A stretch of DNA of 23,039 nucleotides from a virus: IMG/VR virus record IMGVR_UViG_3300012000_000132, positions 1 through 23,039 of that record. The stretch is one strand, 5' to 3'. Below the pieces are notes generated by a model, which saw only the letters and a program-made list of their open reading frames with translations, was not told the origin of the DNA and ran no database searches. The translations under genes were made by a program, and so were the position numbers. Positions 1,494 to 23,039 of this stretch are shown here, piece after piece (position 1 is the first letter of the stretch; each line of letters begins with the position of its first letter).

Positions 1494-2666
1494 TCAAGTT
1501 TGACGCAACGCTAGAGATTTCTCTTTAACAGAATCATAGATCAACGCCCAATATTGAGAGGCTTCTTCGGGAGTCCTCGCGTTCCGGTAGTGCCTAGCGA
1601 ACGTCTTGTAATCAGTGTGCCCCATCGCAGATCGAACGTCGTCAGATGACGCAACTGCGGCAAGATAAGACCCATAGCTGTGCCGCGAAATGTCTCGGGT
1701 CCATTCCACGATTTGAGTCCCATCTTCCCGCACACACAATTTCGTGCGCCACACTCGATGCCCACCGTGAGCGATCTTTCCGCTGTCCTGCTTAAACGCA
1801 ATGAGCCACGTCATCAGCGTAGAGTTGATCGGGACGTAACGGTGCGCGGCCCCTGTCTTGTCCTTGTTCTTGGAGTCGCGAACCTTGATGAGACGCTGAC
1901 TCCACAAAATATCTTCCCACCGAAGCCCGCTTGCGGAAAAGAACTCAGAGTGCGGGCGAAGTCCGGCGAAACAAAGGATGGCCAGATCGAGCGCCATGCG
2001 AGGTTGACGTCTAAGCGCAGACACAAGGAGTTCCTCAAGCTGCACCGGGAGCAAGACATCTGGCACGGTTGCAGGAACCGGGCGCGGGCGGATAGCTTGG
2101 ATCGGGTTGTAGGTGACCTTTCGTTGCGCAAACGCATGCTTGTAAAGACTGTTAAGCCACATCACTGTCTCATTGTAAGTGCGCGGCCCCCAGTCCTTAC
2201 GCCTGGCCACGGCGGCAAGCTCGTCCCGCCAGAAGTCTGTGTCCATTGTTGCGACCCGGGAAGCGCAGAGCGTCTCCCCCAGAGCGTTCCGAATGCGCGA
2301 CCAATCGTGCTTGGTTGACTTGGCGGGGTAGTCAACAAGGTAAGCATCGATCATCGAATCGAGTGTTGGCGATGCTTGATCAGCCATTAGCTGCCGCTCA
2401 AACGCCGCGCACGCTTCTGCCAGCCCCGAGAAGCCAAGGAACTGGAAAACCTCGTTGTAGTAGACGGCATCCCCCACCAGCTTCTCGTCAAGCCCTCGGC
2501 GCAACCTGGGGCGCAGCAATTCTTTCTGCCGGAACAAGGCTTCCTCTTCAGTCGCGAACCGTTCAAGCGTGCGTTTCCCAGTGTCTGCCTGGGTAGCCGG
2601 CACACTAACAACCCACACTTTTTCGGACTCAAGAAACCTGGGCTGAAACTTCGGCCTTTTCGGCAT
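1494..2666 (-). CDS. int: Tyrosine integrase (site-specific recombinase)
   Basis: The product is 390 residues, normal for phage integrases. It would catalyse recombination between attP and a bacterial tRNA-Ser attB. The catalytic domain (about 200-380) shows Arg237 in FAGLRPHSE, candidate lysines 267-270 after VRDSK, the RHSYGSY block (Arg328, His329), His350 in MGHTD and the nucleophile Tyr360 in ARHYRNA. The first residue of the usual HxxR box is Asp325 (DISR), a change seen in some family members. Residues 1-60 fit an arm-binding domain and about 100-190 the core-binding helical domain. The ATG at 2666 has GAGGAG upstream; the open frame continues to 3122, but that part is out of frame within the amidase gene and looks non-protein-like. 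The gene overlaps the amidase end by 38 nt. Confidence 0.93.
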   Translation of the reverse strand: MPKRPKFQPRFLESEKVWVVSVPATQADTGKRTLERFATEEEALFRQKELLRPRLRRGLDEKLVGDAVYYNEVFQFLGFSGLAEACAAFERQLMADQASPTLDSMIDAYLVDYPAKSTKHDWSRIRNALGETLCASRVATMDTDFWRDELAAVARRKDWGPRTYNETVMWLNSLYKHAFAQRKVTYNPIQAIRPRPVPATVPDVLLPVQLEELLVSALRRQPRMALDLAILCFAGLRPHSEFFSASGLRWEDILWSQRLIKVRDSKNKDKTGAAHRYVPINSTLMTWLIAFKQDSGKIAHGGHRVWRTKLCVREDGTQIVEWTRDISRHSYGSYLAAVASSDDVRSAMGHTDYKTFARHYRNARTPEEASQYWALIYDSVKEKSLALRQT

Positions 2667-3294
2667 AGCTCTGAACTCCTCGCGCAATGATTTGCCCCAA
2701 CTCTTCTGGCCGGGAACCCCACCGATGCCAGTCTCCGGGGTTGTCCCCGAAGAACGGCTCAACGATGACGCAGGGCAGCGGATGCGAAAGGAAAGCAACG
2801 CCCCTCCCTTCCGCCAGCTTGGTCCCACGGTCCCTGCCATCGGGCCATGCCGAGCGGATCGAGGTGCGGATGGATTCCGCCAAGGAATCGGCGGCACACT
2901 TCGACAAGACCTCATAACCCGTGGCGTTTCCGTTGGCCGCATTGAAGTGCAGCTCAACAGCAGCCGTTGCGCCGATGCGCTTGAGCTTTTCGCCAAGCCA
3001 CCGCTGGGCCGACCCATAGCCCGCCCCCACATAGGCAGAGATGACGACGCTTTGCCCCGGGAACGCTTTTTTCGCCGCCAGTGCAACGCGCACATTGTAA
3101 GCCCATTCAGAGACCCCACCAACGCTCACGGCCCCCCTGTCTCCCGGGCGCGAATGCCCAACGCAAAAGGCAACCAGTCCTCCACTCGGAACTGCAAGCG
3201 CCGCCCGGAGCGCATCGAGGTGCAGCTTCGCCGAGTGCCCCTCGGGCAACAGTCGGGCGACTTTGTTGATATGGTAGGAAATTGTAGTGTGCAT
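2629..3294 (-). CDS. N-acetylmuramoyl-L-alanine amidase (amidase_3 type endolysin)
   Basis: The chosen ATG at 3294 gives 221 residues. The amidase_3 zinc site is visible: His47 in FCVGHSRPGD, Glu63 in VGGVSEWAYN and His116 in VELHFNA, with the catalytic Glu179 in VIVEPFFGDN. These enzymes cut the bond between N-acetylmuramic acid and L-alanine in peptidoglycan. There is no signal peptide, so it is most simply a cytoplasmic endolysin that needs a holin. Residues 1-40 are an unassigned N-terminal extension. The frame stays open to 3438, but those 48 extra codons run through the integrase arm repeats and have no Shine-Dalgarno, so I reject that start. The 3294 start also lacks a Shine-Dalgarno and directly follows a terminator-like hairpin; a later alternative start is possible. 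Confidence 0.88.
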   Translation of the reverse strand: MHTTISYHINKVARLLPEGHSAKLHLDALRAALAVPSGGLVAFCVGHSRPGDRGAVSVGGVSEWAYNVRVALAAKKAFPGQSVVISAYVGAGYGSAQRWLGEKLKRIGATAAVELHFNAANGNATGYEVLSKCAADSLAESIRTSIRSAWPDGRDRGTKLAEGRGVAFLSHPLPCVIVEPFFGDNPGDWHRWGSRPEELGQIIARGVQSYAEKAEVSAQVS

Positions 3295-3317
3295 AAAAAA
3301 TGCCGGTCTTTCCCGGC
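3295..3317 (-). terminator. Terminator-like hairpin abutting the endolysin start
   Basis: Read on the minus strand this is GCCGG, loop GAAAGA, CCGGC, then A and six T. The stem is only 5 bp but all G/C. It would end or attenuate transcripts coming through attP from the late operon. The T-run touches the amidase ATG at 3294, which is odd. Confidence 0.55.
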
Positions 3318-3388
3318 TGTCATGAAGCGTTGTTTCCAGGGGGAGCGGCTTCCATGCCCCCGCCGATGATGAGAGCTTATAGTAGTTT

Positions 3389-3430
3389 GGAACGAAATCA
3401 ACCTTTTTTGGAACGAAATTGGAACGAACC
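3389..3430 (-). repeat. Left cluster of integrase arm-type repeats (three copies)
   Basis: On the plus strand GGAACGAAAT occurs at 3389-3398 and 3410-3419, and the variant GGAACGAACC at 3421-3430. Start-to-start spacings are 21 and 11 bp, close to whole helical turns. Two more copies lie on the other side of the tRNA core. Short direct repeats flanking the core on both sides are typical of lambda-type arm sites bound by the integrase N-terminal domain. Binding itself is inferred. Confidence 0.7.
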
Positions 3431-3515
3431 ATGACCATAAAGCTGGGAGTCTTAGGCGCAACAGCTTGATTCCTACGGGGACTTAAAGCAAATTATGGCA
3501 CCTCGAAAAAAAATC

Positions 3516-3580
3516 GCAAAGATCTTTGCTAAAGATGCGTGCCTGGAAGGGCACCGTGGGTTCGAATCCCACCCTGACCG
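3516..3580 (+). other. attP: attP core: 3' half of a tRNA-Ser(GCU) gene
   Basis: From the anticodon loop to the discriminator base the plus strand reads as a tRNA-Ser 3' half. The loop TTGCTAA (3526-3532) carries anticodon GCT; the long variable arm is GTGCC (3539-3543) with GGCAC (3550-3554); the T arm is GTGGG TTCGAAT CCCAC (3556-3572); the 3' acceptor strand is CCTGACC (3573-3579), then G3580, with no CCA encoded. Nothing upstream can supply the 5' acceptor strand or D arm, so this is a fragment. Phages often carry such a copy so that integration rebuilds the host tRNA. The anticodon-stem region contains the 14-bp palindrome GCAAAGATCTTTGC (3516-3529), a likely crossover core. With phage genes on both sides, this is attP and not attL or attR. 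Confidence 0.85.
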
Positions 3581-3675
3581 CTCTCTGAATGCGGTCAAAC
3601 AAAGACTCCAGACTAGCTTGTCAACGTAACCGGGAATTCACGCCTCGGCATGAATTCTAGTAGATAGGCTCCTAT
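3575..3675. repeat. Inverted repeats in the right half of attP
   Basis: Three inverted repeats lie between the tRNA fragment and the right arm cluster: TGACCGC/GCGGTCA (3575-3581 and 3591-3597), GAATTCA/TGAATTC (3634-3640 and 3651-3657) and ATAGG/CCTAT (3664-3668 and 3671-3675). None has a following T-run, so they are not intrinsic terminators on either strand. They may be binding sites for accessory proteins or simply structure. The remainder of 3439-3676 holds no gene that I can support. Confidence 0.4.
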
Positions 3676-3676
3676 T

Positions 3677-3697
3677 GGAACGAGATCGGAACGAAAT
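3677..3697 (-). repeat. Right cluster of integrase arm-type repeats (two copies)
   Basis: On the plus strand GGAACGAGAT (3677-3686) and GGAACGAAAT (3688-3697) are 11 bp apart start to start, in the same orientation as the three copies left of the core. The last copy runs into the stop codon of the giant ejection gene (3699-3697). Confidence 0.68.
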
Positions 3698-6600
3698 CAC
3701 TGGGCTTGAATCCGCGAGATTTGGTCCTGAACCGTGTTCGTCAAAAGCTCAGGGTATTGCTGCCACGCCTCAAGCTGCTCCTGCTGTTTTTCCGGCGACA
3801 ACTTCTCCAGCCGCTTGGCCATCACTGCCGCCCTGGCTCCTGACGAGATCTGGAAAGAGCGCAACTCGGTGATCTCGCGAGGTTCTTTTGCCCGGGGCGA
3901 CTTGAGTTCCATCAACCGGGAGAATTCGTCTTCGGTGATTTCCCCCCTTTCACGCATGGGGAGCAACTGTTTCATGCGCTCCTCATCGGGCAACGGGCGC
4001 ATTTTCCGAGAAAGCCGGTCATATCTTTCATCCGCAACCCGGCCCGCCCGCTCTGCGTCGTCCTCCCACAGGAGGTGTCCAATGTCATCGTCAATCCCAA
4101 TGCTTTTGGCGGCTCTCCCCGCAATTGGAATCGCGACAAGCTCGTTGCCTTTCAACGATCCTGCTGCGCTCAAGATCTCCCAAGAAATTTTTGTTATCTC
4201 CTCTGGCGAAATCCCGTCTTCAAAACTTTTCGGAATGCTGCTTGCAAGCTCGCCAATAAGATCGGCAACAGACTGCGTTGCTTGGTTGGGGCGTTCATTG
4301 ACAAATTGACCCAATGCCTTGCCAAGCCCAATCTGAAAACCTTGGCCGAGTGCGTAAACGCCAGCAAAAGGCCCGGTGGCCATAGCAAAGAAATACCGTT
4401 TTGCCATGCTAGCAGGATCAAACTCCTTTTCTCTTTCTTCGTCGTCAAGGCCCGGGAGCTTGGTCAAATCGACGACAGCTTGGAATATCATTGGCAAAAT
4501 GACATGTCCAACGACAAGCCTTCGAATAGCTTCTTCCTTCGCGCCCTTTCTCCCGGCCCGCCAGTCGCCTACTGCCATCCACGTGGAAAGGTAATACATT
4601 CGTGCATTGCTCAAAAACGTGGTGAACAGACGAGCCGCAGAACCACCCATCTCAAAAGTTGACATGTCCTTCAAGCCGGACCCTTGCTGGGTTCGCTCTG
4701 TAGCCTGCTGAAGAAGAGCTTCTCCCGCTTGCTCTGCCGCCTTAATCGCGGCTGGGCCGGTAACGTCCACGCCCAATTCTCGTTGCTCAGCAAGGTAGGT
4801 TTCGTAGCCGTGACGATAAGCGGCATAGCCCCCTACAATAATAGTAATCAGATCGCCGCCACGAGAAAAGATCATGCCGTCTTCGATCATCTGCATGTAC
4901 CGAGATTTTGGCAGCAACCGCCCGCCCGGGGCTTTGTCAAACGCACCGCTCAGAAGAGCAACAGTGTCCCGATCCGGTCCTTCCTCCCATCGCGCCTTAA
5001 CAAAGCCACGATCAAACATGAATTCCCAGTTCTTTTTAAGGTCGCTGAAAAATTCCCGCTCATACTTCAGGAACGTCCTGACTGGCATTTCATACATGTA
5101 AGCCAGCGCACCGGTCATTTGCTTGGGAGTCTGGGACCAGTTCCAGGCCAATCCCTTGATGACCGTTGCCTTGCGAATCTGGTCAAGCAGGGGGGCGATT
5201 TTTGCGCCAACGTCACCACCGTCAGCAAACACTTTAATTCTGCCGAGAATAAGCTGCTTCAACTTCTTCCCTCCAGATTGCTCAATCGCAGCTTGAACGT
5301 TTTTCGAACCAAACACTGCGCTAAGAATTCTGACAGGCTCGCTCCAATGAATGTAATGCGCGGCTTGGATGACGTGCTGCTGGTATTCTACCAAAGCATC
5401 AACGGCAAAATTAGGTTCACTCTTATTATTAATTCGACTAATCAAAAATGACGGGTTTACGCTTCCTGCGGTCTGCACTTTGCTAGAGATCATTGAATCA
5501 GGAAACGTGTTTTCTGGCAGTTTGGTAGCGGGCGAATAATTCGGGATCTTAGGCAACCGCGCCCCGGTCTGCGGAGCAAACACGTCATTGATTTCCGACC
5601 AACCTTCTTGGTATTTTTGGGCCAAGAAATCTCGAATTGCTTTACTCTCAGGGGTCAGGAACTTCTCTACCTGTTCAATGACTTCTGGCGTCCAGCCCCA
5701 ATAAATCAAATTGGCTTGCTGGTCTTCCTGCCTGGCGACAAGCGTAATTTTTATAGCTTGCGCCTGTGAAAGGCGCTGTTCTACTTCTGGTATAGAATTC
5801 CAATCTGTAATGTCTACATCTTTTAGCTCAGTTTGATTGAGCAGATTTTCTTTGCGTCGAGACAACTTGTTAAACCGCTCTCTTGTAGCTTGCTCTTCCG
5901 CAGAAGGCTTTTTCTTTGTGCCCTCTCTCAACCGCTTGTGCCGGTCAAGCTCTGCGATTTCTTCCTGCAAGGAATCTTCAACTGACGCAAGCTCTTCGTC
6001 ATGACGCTGTAAAGCATCAAGAACGTATTGCTTCTGGTCCTTAGACAAGGTTTGGGCGGCTACAGGGTCTTTCCCTTCTTGAATCTCCCGCGCAACCTCA
6101 ACCGGAAAGTTGATGACTCTTCGATCTTTTTCTTGCGGCTCCTTTCGAAAGACTTTGGTTTTGTCCTGAGGTTGCTGAAGCTGAGAATGAATGTTCCACA
6201 GCTTAAACCGCCAGCTCCATTTCTTGCCGTCTGGGTCCAGCCCAAACTGACGCGCTATAAATTTATTAAGCTCGTTAAGGCGGCTTGCAACCTGCCGCTT
6301 CTCGTCGTGCGTGGCCTTGTCAACCATCGCCCCATATCGCTTGTTCAAGGGGCTTTTTAGAGTGCCTGTGGTCTTGTCTTTTCTGCTGGCAGCATTCATG
6401 AGCCAGTCCCAAGTCATCATGTCTTTGAGGAAATCATCGACCTTTTCAAGCTGAGATCCTTGCTTGTCAGCCTCTCTGCTAGCGTCAGCAGATGACATGA
6501 GTCCTTTGCCGCCGGTAATCGTTTCAACGGCTTCCTCGCGAAGCTCTACAACCTTTTTGCGAAACGCCTCCGCAATAACTCGCTGTTGCAGTTTTCCGCC

Positions 6601-9600
6601 TTCAATCAAAGTTTTAAGGTCGGCAACCATTTGAAAAAGCGCCCCGCTGTCTTTCCCTTTCGCATTCCCAAACGCGACAGCTAGCAAATAGTCTTCAGTT
6701 GCATCGTTTAGTTTCTTGGTAGTATCAGCAGTTTGCATCAACTCTTCCTGCCTTTCAAGCTCAGCCAAGACCTCGGCATCAGTCAGCTCAATCAGCTGTT
6801 TGATCTTAGCCAATTGCGAACTAACCGCTTCTCCAGTAGTCGATTTAGGTTTCCCCTTGCTGCTTTGCTTTGCTGCCCCCGATGCGATAAGCCGGTCAAT
6901 GTCGTTGAGCAAAATCCCCTGCGCGTATCGCTCCAAGGTGCCCTGCGCTTTTTCGCCCCGCCTCACAATCTCTTTTCGCCTTGCAGCCGGTCCCATGCGG
7001 ACCAACGTGCCGAAGCCACCAATGTGGCCGCGAAGAGAAACGGGCATGGCCGCAAGGATGGACTCCAAAGCCCTCGTGTCTGCGATAAGGTCGAGCCGAT
7101 TCCGCATGGTCATGCGGTTTGGTGGAGCAACGCGATTTCTGGCGATGATGCCGTCAATCGTTTCAATTGCATCTTTCAGCCCCTCGCGATCCATCTTCGG
7201 CGGGCGCGGCTTTTTCCCAACGGACGCCGTGAGGTCCGCACCATCTACCTCCCCGGGAATATCAATTTTCCCTGCGTTGCGCTCAATCTCCTGAGTGCGT
7301 CGTTTGTCAGCTTCATAGGCCAACAACACTGCATCAGAGGTCTCCGGGTTCGCCTCAAGATAGGCGTCAACCTCTGCCTCGCTTTTCCCTCGGATGCTGT
7401 TGAATGCTGCCGCTTCTTTCGCATTTAACCCCTCAATGACATTCTTCCCATCGACAGAAAGACCGGCAGCTTCGGAGATCTTCGCCTCAAACTGCGGCGT
7501 GATCACCCCCGCTTGAATTGCCTTTTCCAGCCTAACGGCACGCCGCATGATGTCAGTCATCCATCGCGTGAGCCGAGTGAAGAACTCCTGCACAGATTGA
7601 GGGAGTGACCTTGTCGTGATGGCGCGGCCCGCCAGCATATCGACCGAAAGATCGGAGAACCATTCCAGCAAACCCTCCCTGGTATCTGATGCGCGACTCT
7701 TGACATCTGGGTCAAAAGTTTCCAAGCTCGCCCGTGCTTGCCGCAATTCGTCTTCAGACAATCTTCCGTCGTCGATAGCCTGTTTGGCCCATGCCTGGGC
7801 TTTTTCCCGGGCGTAATAAAGCGGAGCGTTCTCACCCTGCACAATCGCAATGGTGATCTGGCGTTGTTCGTTTCTCCAGTTCGCGCCGGTCAGATTGTAG
7901 GGGTCGCCATCATCTGGCGATTCATTGCCCTGAATTCGGTCCTCGGAAAGAGTCAGGGATTCTGAAGCTGCGATTGCCTCTTGCGTTGCATTTTGAACCT
8001 CGGCCTCAGAGGCGATCGTGTTGACCAAGTCTTCCAACTGGTTGTATTCCTTCAGAACCACCGTCTGGTCAACGGGCTTCCCCCTTTTGCGAGAAAGATC
8101 GTTATGATAGGCGATGAACTCGTCAAGAGTTCCAGTCGCCATGTCAGGTTCTGCAACAACAGGCTGGCGAAGGTTGCCTTGAATCGCGCTCTGAATTGTA
8201 GCAAACGTCGCGTTGCTTTTGAGACCAAGGACTTGTCGGAGCTTTTTTTGCTGACCCGTCGGAACACGCTTCCACATGTCGCGGAACTCTACGTCTGTCG
8301 CGTTTTCCAAAAGCGTTGCCGCTCTGTCACTAAGGATGGACCGCAGATCCGGCTTTGCCTCGGGGTCTGCTGGTGCGTCTGGAGTTGTCGCGGAAGAATT
8401 TTCGGGTGCCGCCGGTGCCTCAGATGCTAGCTCAACGCGAAACATCTCATCAACCTTTGCATCTGCTTCTCCCGCCTCAATTATCAATTTGCGGGCACGC
8501 TCCGTAGCGTCAGCAATGGCTTGCCTTGCCGCTTCTTTAACGTCATCCGGCGCATCCTTGCTTTGAATCACGCGATTGGCATTTCTGATTGCCGGGTGAT
8601 TCCCTTCAATTACGGACTGCGCTGAGTCGGCAGCAATTTTATTGACTGCTTTTTGAGCTTTTAGCAACACTTCCTTGTCGCTATATTCAAGCCCTTTGAT
8701 CGACGCGCCTGTCAAGCCACCAAGCAAAAACACATCGGCCATCTCTCCAGGCTCCCAGATTTTTCGATTAGGCTTAGCAACACCACCGTAAATTTCTACT
8801 GCGTTGCTTAGAGCTTGAGTAAAGACCTCAACCGATCCTTCTTCAAATCCGCCAAACAATCGCCGCGAAACCCCGGTTTCAACGTAGCGCCCGAACGGGG
8901 TCTTGTTGATCCATTTAAAGCCGCCTAACCCAAAAGCCTCCAGAGATCCAACTCCCGCCTTAAAATAAATCTGTTCTCGAATTTGATCTTCCGTTGCTCC
9001 TGCTGCACGAGCTTTTTGAACCCCCTCTTCAACTGATTGCCCCGCCCCCATGATTCCAAGTCCAACAGGACCACCAAGCATTGCAGCGGGCGCTTGACCA
9101 ATGATATTGCCAACAGCTTGTGGGACTTTGCTATAAAGAAAACTTTCGGCCAATGCCGGATTTTTAAGCAAACGAGACTCAACCTTTGACTGAAACAAAT
9201 CCTTGGTTTTTTGTCCAAGCATTTGAATCAAATACCCCATCATTGGGGTCGGGTCCATTCCGGTGTCCCAGTATTGCTCCTGAGCTTCTGTCGGATTTGG
9301 GAAGTAATCAATGTAAAGGCCGTCTTCGTCTTCTTCGACATCGATGCGCTCCCGGTCATAAAGTTGCTGCTTAAAAACCTCCAAGCCTTTTGGGTCCGTT
9401 TGCTTTAAGCGATAATAGTTTCTTTCAATTTGCGCCCGCTTTTCTTCTGGCAGGGTATAGAAATCCTCCTGATCCTTTGCGATGCGCTCATAAGGCTGCA
9501 TCATCAACCTACCCGTACCGGAGATGCCGTCTATTGCCTTTCCAACGCCAGTAATTAATTCACTGCTAGCGTGGACTCCCGGATTGACATTATTGTCAAT

Positions 9601-9804
9601 CGCGTTCATGCGATAATCCTCAAAGAACTTCTGCGCGACAGCACTGGCTTTTTCTGAAGAAACTCGCTCTTGGATCAAATAATCGTAAACGTGCTGACGG
9701 TGTGCAATCAGCAGCGCCATCCTGGCCTCCGGCGTGGCATCCGTCCAGTCTTTAGATCCAATGATCTTCTGCCAATTTTCCGGCTGAGTTACAAAATTAC
9801 TCAT
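3697..9804 (-). CDS. Giant internal virion / DNA-ejection protein (T7 gp16 position)
   Basis: With the ATG at 9804 the protein has 2035 residues; an AAGGA lies about 10 nt upstream, and the start overlaps the preceding stop as ATGAGTAA. An in-frame ATG at 9849 lies inside the previous gene and is less likely. Residues 228-255 form a Gly/Ala-rich hydrophobic stretch, and GGFEEGSVEVFTQA (318-331) resembles segments of other phage inner-virion proteins. Residues 640-780 (LLEWFSDLSVDMLAGR and following) resemble parts of large polyvalent phage proteins. Coiled-coil-like charged helices fill the middle, and two hydrophobic segments lie near the C-terminus (about 1763-1780 and 1806-1828). Place and size suggest the largest ejectosome protein, delivered with the DNA. 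T7 gp16 has about 1318 residues and an N-terminal transglycosylase; I see no such domain here. Exact family unproven. Confidence 0.78.
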   Translation of the reverse strand: MSNFVTQPENWQKIIGSKDWTDATPEARMALLIAHRQHVYDYLIQERVSSEKASAVAQKFFEDYRMNAIDNNVNPGVHASSELITGVGKAIDGISGTGRLMMQPYERIAKDQEDFYTLPEEKRAQIERNYYRLKQTDPKGLEVFKQQLYDRERIDVEEDEDGLYIDYFPNPTEAQEQYWDTGMDPTPMMGYLIQMLGQKTKDLFQSKVESRLLKNPALAESFLYSKVPQAVGNIIGQAPAAMLGGPVGLGIMGAGQSVEEGVQKARAAGATEDQIREQIYFKAGVGSLEAFGLGGFKWINKTPFGRYVETGVSRRLFGGFEEGSVEVFTQALSNAVEIYGGVAKPNRKIWEPGEMADVFLLGGLTGASIKGLEYSDKEVLLKAQKAVNKIAADSAQSVIEGNHPAIRNANRVIQSKDAPDDVKEAARQAIADATERARKLIIEAGEADAKVDEMFRVELASEAPAAPENSSATTPDAPADPEAKPDLRSILSDRAATLLENATDVEFRDMWKRVPTGQQKKLRQVLGLKSNATFATIQSAIQGNLRQPVVAEPDMATGTLDEFIAYHNDLSRKRGKPVDQTVVLKEYNQLEDLVNTIASEAEVQNATQEAIAASESLTLSEDRIQGNESPDDGDPYNLTGANWRNEQRQITIAIVQGENAPLYYAREKAQAWAKQAIDDGRLSEDELRQARASLETFDPDVKSRASDTREGLLEWFSDLSVDMLAGRAITTRSLPQSVQEFFTRLTRWMTDIMRRAVRLEKAIQAGVITPQFEAKISEAAGLSVDGKNVIEGLNAKEAAAFNSIRGKSEAEVDAYLEANPETSDAVLLAYEADKRRTQEIERNAGKIDIPGEVDGADLTASVGKKPRPPKMDREGLKDAIETIDGIIARNRVAPPNRMTMRNRLDLIADTRALESILAAMPVSLRGHIGGFGTLVRMGPAARRKEIVRRGEKAQGTLERYAQGILLNDIDRLIASGAAKQSSKGKPKSTTGEAVSSQLAKIKQLIELTDAEVLAELERQEELMQTADTTKKLNDATEDYLLAVAFGNAKGKDSGALFQMVADLKTLIEGGKLQQRVIAEAFRKKVVELREEAVETITGGKGLMSSADASREADKQGSQLEKVDDFLKDMMTWDWLMNAASRKDKTTGTLKSPLNKRYGAMVDKATHDEKRQVASRLNELNKFIARQFGLDPDGKKWSWRFKLWNIHSQLQQPQDKTKVFRKEPQEKDRRVINFPVEVAREIQEGKDPVAAQTLSKDQKQYVLDALQRHDEELASVEDSLQEEIAELDRHKRLREGTKKKPSAEEQATRERFNKLSRRKENLLNQTELKDVDITDWNSIPEVEQRLSQAQAIKITLVARQEDQQANLIYWGWTPEVIEQVEKFLTPESKAIRDFLAQKYQEGWSEINDVFAPQTGARLPKIPNYSPATKLPENTFPDSMISSKVQTAGSVNPSFLISRINNKSEPNFAVDALVEYQQHVIQAAHYIHWSEPVRILSAVFGSKNVQAAIEQSGGKKLKQLILGRIKVFADGGDVGAKIAPLLDQIRKATVIKGLAWNWSQTPKQMTGALAYMYEMPVRTFLKYEREFFSDLKKNWEFMFDRGFVKARWEEGPDRDTVALLSGAFDKAPGGRLLPKSRYMQMIEDGMIFSRGGDLITIIVGGYAAYRHGYETYLAEQRELGVDVTGPAAIKAAEQAGEALLQQATERTQQGSGLKDMSTFEMGGSAARLFTTFLSNARMYYLSTWMAVGDWRAGRKGAKEEAIRRLVVGHVILPMIFQAVVDLTKLPGLDDEEREKEFDPASMAKRYFFAMATGPFAGVYALGQGFQIGLGKALGQFVNERPNQATQSVADLIGELASSIPKSFEDGISPEEITKISWEILSAAGSLKGNELVAIPIAGRAAKSIGIDDDIGHLLWEDDAERAGRVADERYDRLSRKMRPLPDEERMKQLLPMRERGEITEDEFSRLMELKSPRAKEPREITELRSFQISSGARAAVMAKRLEKLSPEKQQEQLEAWQQYPELLTNTVQDQISRIQAQ

Positions 9805-11362
9805 TTGCAGAGAATCCTTGCCAGTTCCTGAGGTTACCCAGAATTCCAAGCGCAGAAGGCTGAAGCCCCATGCTGTTGATTATTTCTTCATCAGTTTTTT
9901 CTCTTGGAACATACAACCCTGGGGCCGCAATATTCGAAACGCCGCTACCCCGAACCTCGATGTTCATAGAGTCCAAGAACTTCATCATGTCCGCATCCGT
10001 CGCGCCGGGATTTGATTCCAAAAAAAGTGAAAGCTCGTTCTCTAGCACAACCTTAACTTTTTCTTTTTGCAGATTCACGCTATCTAAAGACCCGGGAGGT
10101 CTCGGCAAGATCGCATTGTCAACTGAAGCATTAATCAACCGGCTTCCTTGGCGGAACATGCGTGCCTGAAAGGAATTCTCATCCCCGGTCCTGTCGTTCA
10201 CTGAGTTGCTCAGCAGGTGAAGAAACTGCCCTCGATAGTCTTTGTGAACCTCGGTCCCGATCCGCTCTTGCATAGCCCAGATTTCTTCAACCTTGGATTG
10301 ATCGGTCAATTTCAGAACGTCTTGTCGAACTTTTGCCATTGCCTCAAAATCGGGCCTCAAGCCGTTCGTCCAATACTCTGTCAGCTTTGCCGTGGCCACC
10401 GGCTCAAGCAGTGGACCTTGATCTGAAAGAAGCTGTTGAAACTTGCTTTCGGACATATTGGGATCTGCTACAATAGCATTTTCGATCACGCCAAACTGCT
10501 CGATCCGCTTGTTGTGCAGGGACTGATCGATAGACCGGCTAGCCTTCATCGCGTCCATTGGAGTCAGCCACTCTGGTTTCCCATCAACAACTTGCTTTGC
10601 CATCACCGGATCATTTTCGATCAGCAGATCCAGCACTTCTCGGTTCACTTGAACCTGTCCTTTTTGCAGCGCGATTTCTCCTTCGCTCTGCCCAACAATC
10701 CCAGCCGCCACGCCTCCAGAAATAATTTCTGCATAGCTGTTAAGATCGTGGCGGGCCAAGGCTTCTTTTGCAGCAAAGTTCAGCTTCGCTTTAGCGATCT
10801 GGGCGTGACGCGAAATCGTCATGCTGCTTAGCCTAGTGGCAACTTCTGCATCCCAAAATTTAAAATTTTTTTCCAGCTTTTCTCGCCCAGCTTTGCTAAG
10901 TTTTGATTTTTCGACAACCTCTTGCCGTACCACTTGACTGGCTTTTTCCCACGTTGACTCCCAGTCATATGGGTCTTCGGGAAGCCCTTCTAAAAAATCA
11001 CTGCTTGCCCGCTTCATCCGAGCGTCTGCCTCCATCAGTTCCGCAGACTCTCGCGCCATGATCACCTTCTGCGCGATGCCGCCGATGGCAGACCCAACTT
11101 CGGTGACCGCACGGCTCATCGCATCGCCCCTGGTCAATTCGGCCCGCGCAGTTGCTGCCTGTCCTTGAGCTAACGCTGTACCATCCCGCATGACCCCGCC
11201 AACGCGCCGCTCAACTGAAGCAACCCTAGGGGTGAGCGCAACGCGAGGGACATCGATCGGACCAGGGATTCTGGCAGATGCGCCAGTTGCCCCGGGCATC
11301 ATACCTGCCGCCCCGGAAACGTCCGGTGGGCTTGGAAGTCGAGCTATAATTCGTTCAGCCAT
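9797..11362 (-). CDS. Internal virion protein (T7 gp15 position)
   Basis: The product has 521 residues from the ATG at 11362, which overlaps the upstream stop as ATGGCTGA. No Shine-Dalgarno is visible, so translation probably depends on re-initiation. A frame extension to 11443 would lie inside the previous gene. Residues 1-60 are Pro/Gly-rich; the rest is predicted mainly helical and charged, without cysteines that I can see and with no recognisable enzymatic motif. Second of three collinear genes downstream of the tail-tube genes, it occupies the slot of T7 gp15, a DNA-ejectosome component. The assignment rests on gene order and composition, since these proteins diverge quickly. Confidence 0.7.
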   Translation of the reverse strand: MAERIIARLPSPPDVSGAAGMMPGATGASARIPGPIDVPRVALTPRVASVERRVGGVMRDGTALAQGQAATARAELTRGDAMSRAVTEVGSAIGGIAQKVIMARESAELMEADARMKRASSDFLEGLPEDPYDWESTWEKASQVVRQEVVEKSKLSKAGREKLEKNFKFWDAEVATRLSSMTISRHAQIAKAKLNFAAKEALARHDLNSYAEIISGGVAAGIVGQSEGEIALQKGQVQVNREVLDLLIENDPVMAKQVVDGKPEWLTPMDAMKASRSIDQSLHNKRIEQFGVIENAIVADPNMSESKFQQLLSDQGPLLEPVATAKLTEYWTNGLRPDFEAMAKVRQDVLKLTDQSKVEEIWAMQERIGTEVHKDYRGQFLHLLSNSVNDRTGDENSFQARMFRQGSRLINASVDNAILPRPPGSLDSVNLQKEKVKVVLENELSLFLESNPGATDADMMKFLDSMNIEVRGSGVSNIAAPGLYVPREKTDEEIINSMGLQPSALGILGNLRNWQGFSANE

Positions 11363-22485: not shown

Positions 22486-23039
22486 TAGTAGTATTCAGTT
22501 ATGATAAGCAGACCCCCGCCACCCTGTCCACCAGGGGTTGCGGCCTTGGATGCGACTCGCCCAGTGTTGTTGGCACCTCTCCCACCCAGTGCAGCGGGTG
22601 ATGCTGGCACGGACGCTACGTCAAATAGAGGTGAAACCAATCCCGGGAAGCCCCAAGACAGGCCAGGCGTTGATGGCAAAGCAGCAAACGCATCATTTGA
22701 GGTTTTAAAACCAATCCCTCCATTCCCACCGTTCACAATGAAAGAGGTATTTACAAGCGCCGAAATGTTGGTCCCGAGCGCCGCCGTTCCGCCCGCTCCT
22801 CCTGTAATTAAAAATGATCCAGTGCTTGTACTTCCCCCGGCCCCGCCAATCCCCCCCCCTGCCAAGGCAAGCGATGAACTTCCATCTGCACCACCCAAAA
22901 ATTGACTAGCAGTACCGTCGTTCCCAGCATTGCCAGTGGTAGTAGAAGCACTCCCGGAAGACCCACCACTACCAATGGTGTATTTGAAGACTTGCGCCAT
23001 GTTGGTAATCCACAACCGCACGTAGGCTCCACCACCGCC
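22485..23039 (-). CDS. Glycine-rich fibre/appendage protein, C-terminal part (start beyond window)
   Basis: The frame stays open from the stop at 22487-22485 to the right edge, 184 residues, so the N-terminus lies outside. An internal GTG at 23021 is not the real start, since GGGGAY directly before it continues the same domain. The sequence is Gly/Ser/Ala-rich, with motifs such as GGGIGGAGGS and GGAGGTAAL, and it ends GGQGGGGLLIITEYY. This pattern (Gly-rich loops ending in a strand like GLVIVEY) is characteristic of the glycine-rich domain found at the end of phage tail appendages and fibres. It probably binds the cell surface or builds a polyglycine-helix bundle. The remainder of the protein, and so its exact role, cannot be seen. 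Confidence 0.75.
   Translation of the reverse strand, partial: GGGGAYVRLWITNMAQVFKYTIGSGGSSGSASTTTGNAGNDGTASQFLGGADGSSSLALAGGGIGGAGGSTSTGSFLITGGAGGTAALGTNISALVNTSFIVNGGNGGIGFKTSNDAFAALPSTPGLSWGFPGLVSPLFDVASVPASPAALGGRGANNTGRVASKAATPGGQGGGGLLIITEYY

Follow-up and report, generated by a model that had tools for sequence, protein, structure and literature searches.

The window, by which we mean the whole stretch of DNA analysed, is a viral record 23,039 bases long, in which all recognised genes are encoded on the minus strand, in the order terminase, portal-type connector, head and tail proteins, a 2050-amino-acid gene, the phage attachment site (attP), an amidase and an integrase. The 2050-amino-acid gene (3697-9849, minus strand), homologues of which adjoin attP in all three relatives described below, encodes a protein that gave no match in Pfam, PHROG or NCBIfam and is probably a virion protein, judged by gene position. 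Between attP and the integrase gene lies an amidase endolysin (Amidase_3; 2629-3294, minus strand), and the integrase is a 390-amino-acid tyrosine recombinase (1494-2666, minus strand; PHROG integrase, E 2.4e-24). A terminator-like hairpin with a T run (3302-3317, minus strand) immediately precedes the presumed amidase ATG at 3294, so that this start is tentative and a control element may lie here. One further record (L017) has a terminase identical to that of the window, but is without attP.

The presumed attP core is the 3′ half of a tRNA-Ser(GCU) gene (3522-3580, plus strand), within which the anticodon loop TTGCTAA (3526-3532) is the presumed strand-exchange region. Positions 3529-3580 weakly matched an Rfam model resembling a tRNA 3′ half, and 3522-3580 holds this half only, with no whole tRNA gene. 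The 59-bp block recurs with few changes in the related record L001, which was the sole match in a scan with a degenerate core; an exact match to the tRNA-Ser core was found in neither genome_contigs nor viral_contigs, so that the host attB was not located in these collections. Since attP is seemingly intact and has phage genes on either side, the window should represent the unintegrated form. A sequence matching the IHF consensus exactly, a weak candidate, lies between the core and one repeat cluster (3459-3471, minus strand), and L001 has an IHF consensus only with one mismatch, on the opposite side of its attP from that of the window (3994-4006). Between the core and the other cluster is a near-perfect 11-bp inverted repeat (3634-3657; GAATTCACGCC / GGCATGAATTC).

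Five repeats, all in the same orientation, flank this core. Motif search confirmed the starts given in the earlier note (3389, 3410, 3421, 3677 and 3688), as well as the spacings of 21 and 11 bp on one side and 11 bp on the other, which are near whole helical turns. Its description of them as five copies of one 10-mer holds for three, since GGAACGAAAT occurs exactly on the plus strand at 3389-3398 (outermost on the amidase side), 3410-3419 and 3688-3697 (abutting the stop codon of the large gene), whereas the plus-strand copies at 3677-3686 (GGAACGAGAT) and 3421-3430 (GGAACGAACC, innermost on the amidase side) carry one and two mismatches, respectively. The invariant part of all five is the 7-mer GGAACGA, which on the plus strand of the window occurs at these five positions. 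That the motif should be infrequent elsewhere in the genome was borne out, with a single extra copy in the remaining 22.7 kb, at 22924 on the minus strand.

With up to two mismatches allowed, the window contains 25 occurrences of the 10-mer, which is the number expected by chance, so the signal resides in the clustering of the 7-mer, together with the relatives. In dinucleotide shuffles of the window, 12 of 200 contained some 7-mer five times within 330 bp, and the five of these that were listed were homopolymers; when the attP region was shuffled 500 times, four copies of a 7-mer with at least three different letters were never obtained. Searching IMG/VR for GGAACGA in tandem returned 15 matches, by our rough estimate about the chance expectation for a collection of this size, and there were no convincing integrase relatives among them.

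Three IMG/VR relatives encode integrases 43-52% identical to that of the window (L001, 52%; L024, 44%; L025, 43%). L024 and L025 were found with a profile that included the integrase of Akkermansia phage Chantilly (ON453895), which was itself the sole match among 50,697 phage records, at 24% identity. Two records with more distant integrases (L026 and L027) were left out, having no flank on the relevant side or being partial, and an integrase scan of genome_contigs gave no match. The gene order of the window (large gene, attP, amidase, integrase) is shared by L001, L024 and L025, and in each a tRNA half is flanked by two clusters of repeats on the same strand. The L001 repeats are TGTTCY (TGTTCC or TGTTCT) in a 2+3 arrangement, oriented as the CGTTCC of the window on that strand; counted from the large-gene end they lie at 11 and 21, the core at 162, and the others at 280, 301 and 321, compared with GTTCC at 6 and 17, the core at 166, and 273, 284 and 305 in the window. 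A motif matrix from the window did not single out attP in L001; the L001 motif has drifted, and the comparison therefore requires a de novo search. After the tRNA half was taken out, 1 of 5000 shuffles produced a 5-mer that both phages carry at least twice on either side of the core; in the real sequences this 5-mer is GTTCC. L001 taken alone is weaker, its top 6-mer having four copies and being matched in 6 of 500 shuffles.

L024 and L025 each carry six repeats in a 3+3 arrangement, AATGACY in L024 and RRTGCC in L025 (site forms AATGACC versus AGTGCCAC), at positions 88, 99 and 111, with the core at 204, and then at 310/311, 321/322 and 344/345. Elsewhere in the whole L024 record AATGACY occurs four more times, all scattered. 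The tRNA half of both differs from that of the window, having the anticodon loop CTTTTAA, being tRNA-Lys-like and lying in the other orientation. As L024 and L025 keep the two-cluster arm layout with another tRNA target, the specificity of the core can apparently change independently of that of the arms.

At the fifth repeat base the six L024 copies uniformly read A, and the six L025 copies uniformly read C. Outside the repeats, where the alignment is 80% identical, only 4 of 74 L024 A's are changed to C in L025, and other shifts of the six-position frame gave at most four parallel changes, the shift giving four falling on another repeat base. A shared reader of the DNA is the best explanation for the concerted change of all six sites. 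The two integrases are 75% identical in residues 1-52 (13 of these 52 residues differ) and 88% in the remainder, which is suggestive, short of proof, of an N-terminal domain that changed together with the arm sites.

The window integrase has tyrosine recombinase core-binding and catalytic domains, with a Pfam PF00589 score below the cutoff (E 5e-5). AlphaFold modelled its residues 1-60 as three strands and a helix (beta-beta-beta-alpha; mean pLDDT 80.5), the arrangement of the arm-binding domains in the lambda and Tn916 integrases, and the predicted arm-binding-type domain spans residues about 9-52. Structural matches of residues 1-60 were weak and included AP2 DNA-binding domains and the lambda integrase N-terminal domain (1z1b, Z 3.0), the latter ranking amid unrelated folds. 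Foldseek with the N-terminal model returned no match at E <0.001, Pfam models, arm-binding models included, did not match this domain, and when the sequences of the integrase pair were compared with solved structures, the matches were weak only. The full-length model was poor (mean pLDDT 51.9). An N-terminal arm-binding domain is carried by most phage and ICE tyrosine recombinases, and the catalytic set of the family is the pentad RKHRH plus a tyrosine (PMC8138268). R237, R328, H350 and Y360 are conserved in the window, the three relatives and Chantilly, and K266 in the window and the three near relatives. Where motif alignment places the first pentad histidine (HxxR motif), the window, L001, L024, L025 and Chantilly apparently have an aspartate (D325 in the window). 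The Chantilly integrase thus resembles that of the window in its N-terminal segment and in the active-site-motif aspartate, although it is distant and was compared by protein only.

Based on these observations, we propose that the phage's own tyrosine integrase very probably binds the five repeats as its arm-type sites. The earlier note had read them in this way, and its reading is strengthened by the flanked tRNA-half core, the helical spacing and the near absence of the motif elsewhere, above all by relatives that kept the layout while their lineage-specific motifs changed in concert, and it also fits the predicted N-terminal domain of the nearby integrase. Counting against it are the weak structural similarity of this domain and its lack of a Pfam match, the host attB that the scans did not locate, and the apparent aspartate in place of the first catalytic histidine. 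With such repeats on both sides of the core, attP and integrase would form a lambda-type (complex) tyrosine recombinase system, a known kind with its own motif. We infer integrase binding, bridging, the crossover point and the host site at attP as follows. The small N-terminal domain of the integrase would bind the repeats on both arms, and the tRNA-Ser(GCU) core that the arms enclose would be occupied by its core-binding and catalytic domains; arms and core would be bridged in this complex, with strand exchange in the anticodon loop, and the phage would insert at a host tRNA gene, the 3′ end of which would be restored.

Alternatively, the repeats could be operators with no connection to recombination, at which a transcription factor of the phage or of its host controls the amidase-integrase pair. 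The amidase-side cluster precedes the amidase start, and the promoter -10-like element CTACTATAA (3377-3385, minus strand), at which a sigma-70 scan called no promoter, adjoins the outermost arm repeat; an element of this type lies directly beside an amidase-side repeat in all four phages (the window, L001, L024 and L025). However, in all four the second cluster is located beyond the tRNA half, near the 3′ end of the large gene, and an amidase regulator needs no flanking of an attachment core, which makes this explanation quite unlikely. It is still less probable that the repeats are bound, in place of the integrase, by an excisionase or some other accessory protein that bends DNA: such proteins also bind near attachment sites and the repeats could serve them, but in count, spacing and presence on two arms the repeats resemble the arm-type sites of ICEMlSymR7A and lambda (five each), and general gene annotation of the window brought out no excisionase. 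A short word might also cluster by chance, for which the chance-level frequency of the degenerate 10-mer over the window and the tandem pattern at unrelated places in IMG/VR might speak; this reading is contradicted by the conserved layout and concerted change in the three relatives and can be virtually dismissed.

Arm-type sites of the integrase, our preferred explanation, have close counterparts in described systems. Lambda is not known to use a tRNA gene for attachment, as the window presumably does; the lambda motif is also different, and in the window an endolysin gene lies between attP and int, and any IHF or Xis sites are putative. Five sites on two arms are common to both, and those of lambda are bound by a small N-terminal domain and bridged to the core, with bending proteins in between (PMC4880445). 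Five arm motifs in a short attP are also shared with ICEMlSymR7A and its integrase IntS, where motifs of about 10 bp lie within 283 bp and efficient integration is reported to need all five (PMC11963761). That element differs in its motif (TGKTGGTATC), in being an integrative conjugative element and in an int gene that immediately adjoins the attachment site. The KplE1 prophage, with its own IntS, resembles the window in combining attachment at a tRNA gene (argW) with arm-type sites (PMC2951348).

The position of the repeats may also bear on lysis. In all four phages attP lies between the structural-type large gene and the amidase, so integration would split the endolysin from structural-gene transcription. 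The arm-type sites of KplE1 overlap a promoter and thereby allow its integrase to regulate transcription (PMC2951348), and in ICEMlSymR7A IntS bound at attP is reported to prevent intS transcription (PMC11963761). If CTACTATAA is a promoter element, arm-bound integrase could likewise repress the amidase-integrase pair, with the difference that the KplE1 promoter is that of intS itself, whereas the promoter predicted in the window precedes the amidase and then int. Another repeated element, TTMTAGTAG, occurs once per arm, at 3655-3663 and at 3377-3385 (the coordinates of CTACTATAA), 278 bp apart, and is absent elsewhere in the window. A joint reading, in which the integration state gates lysis, and the arm code and the integrase N-terminal domain seem to co-change so fast that they differ even between integrases about 86% identical, is put forward tentatively and is rather doubtful as a whole.

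These results define an attachment site for an essentially undescribed phage group. The machinery is of a known kind, and the trace of its evolution is unusually clear. The four integrases provide a natural panel in which the layout is constant and the arm motifs are of at least three kinds; within it the L024/L025 pair makes the recognition code of the arm-binding domain directly testable through the 13 N-terminal residue differences and defined base differences in every arm site. As new orthogonal integrase/attP pairs, they would be useful genetic tools.
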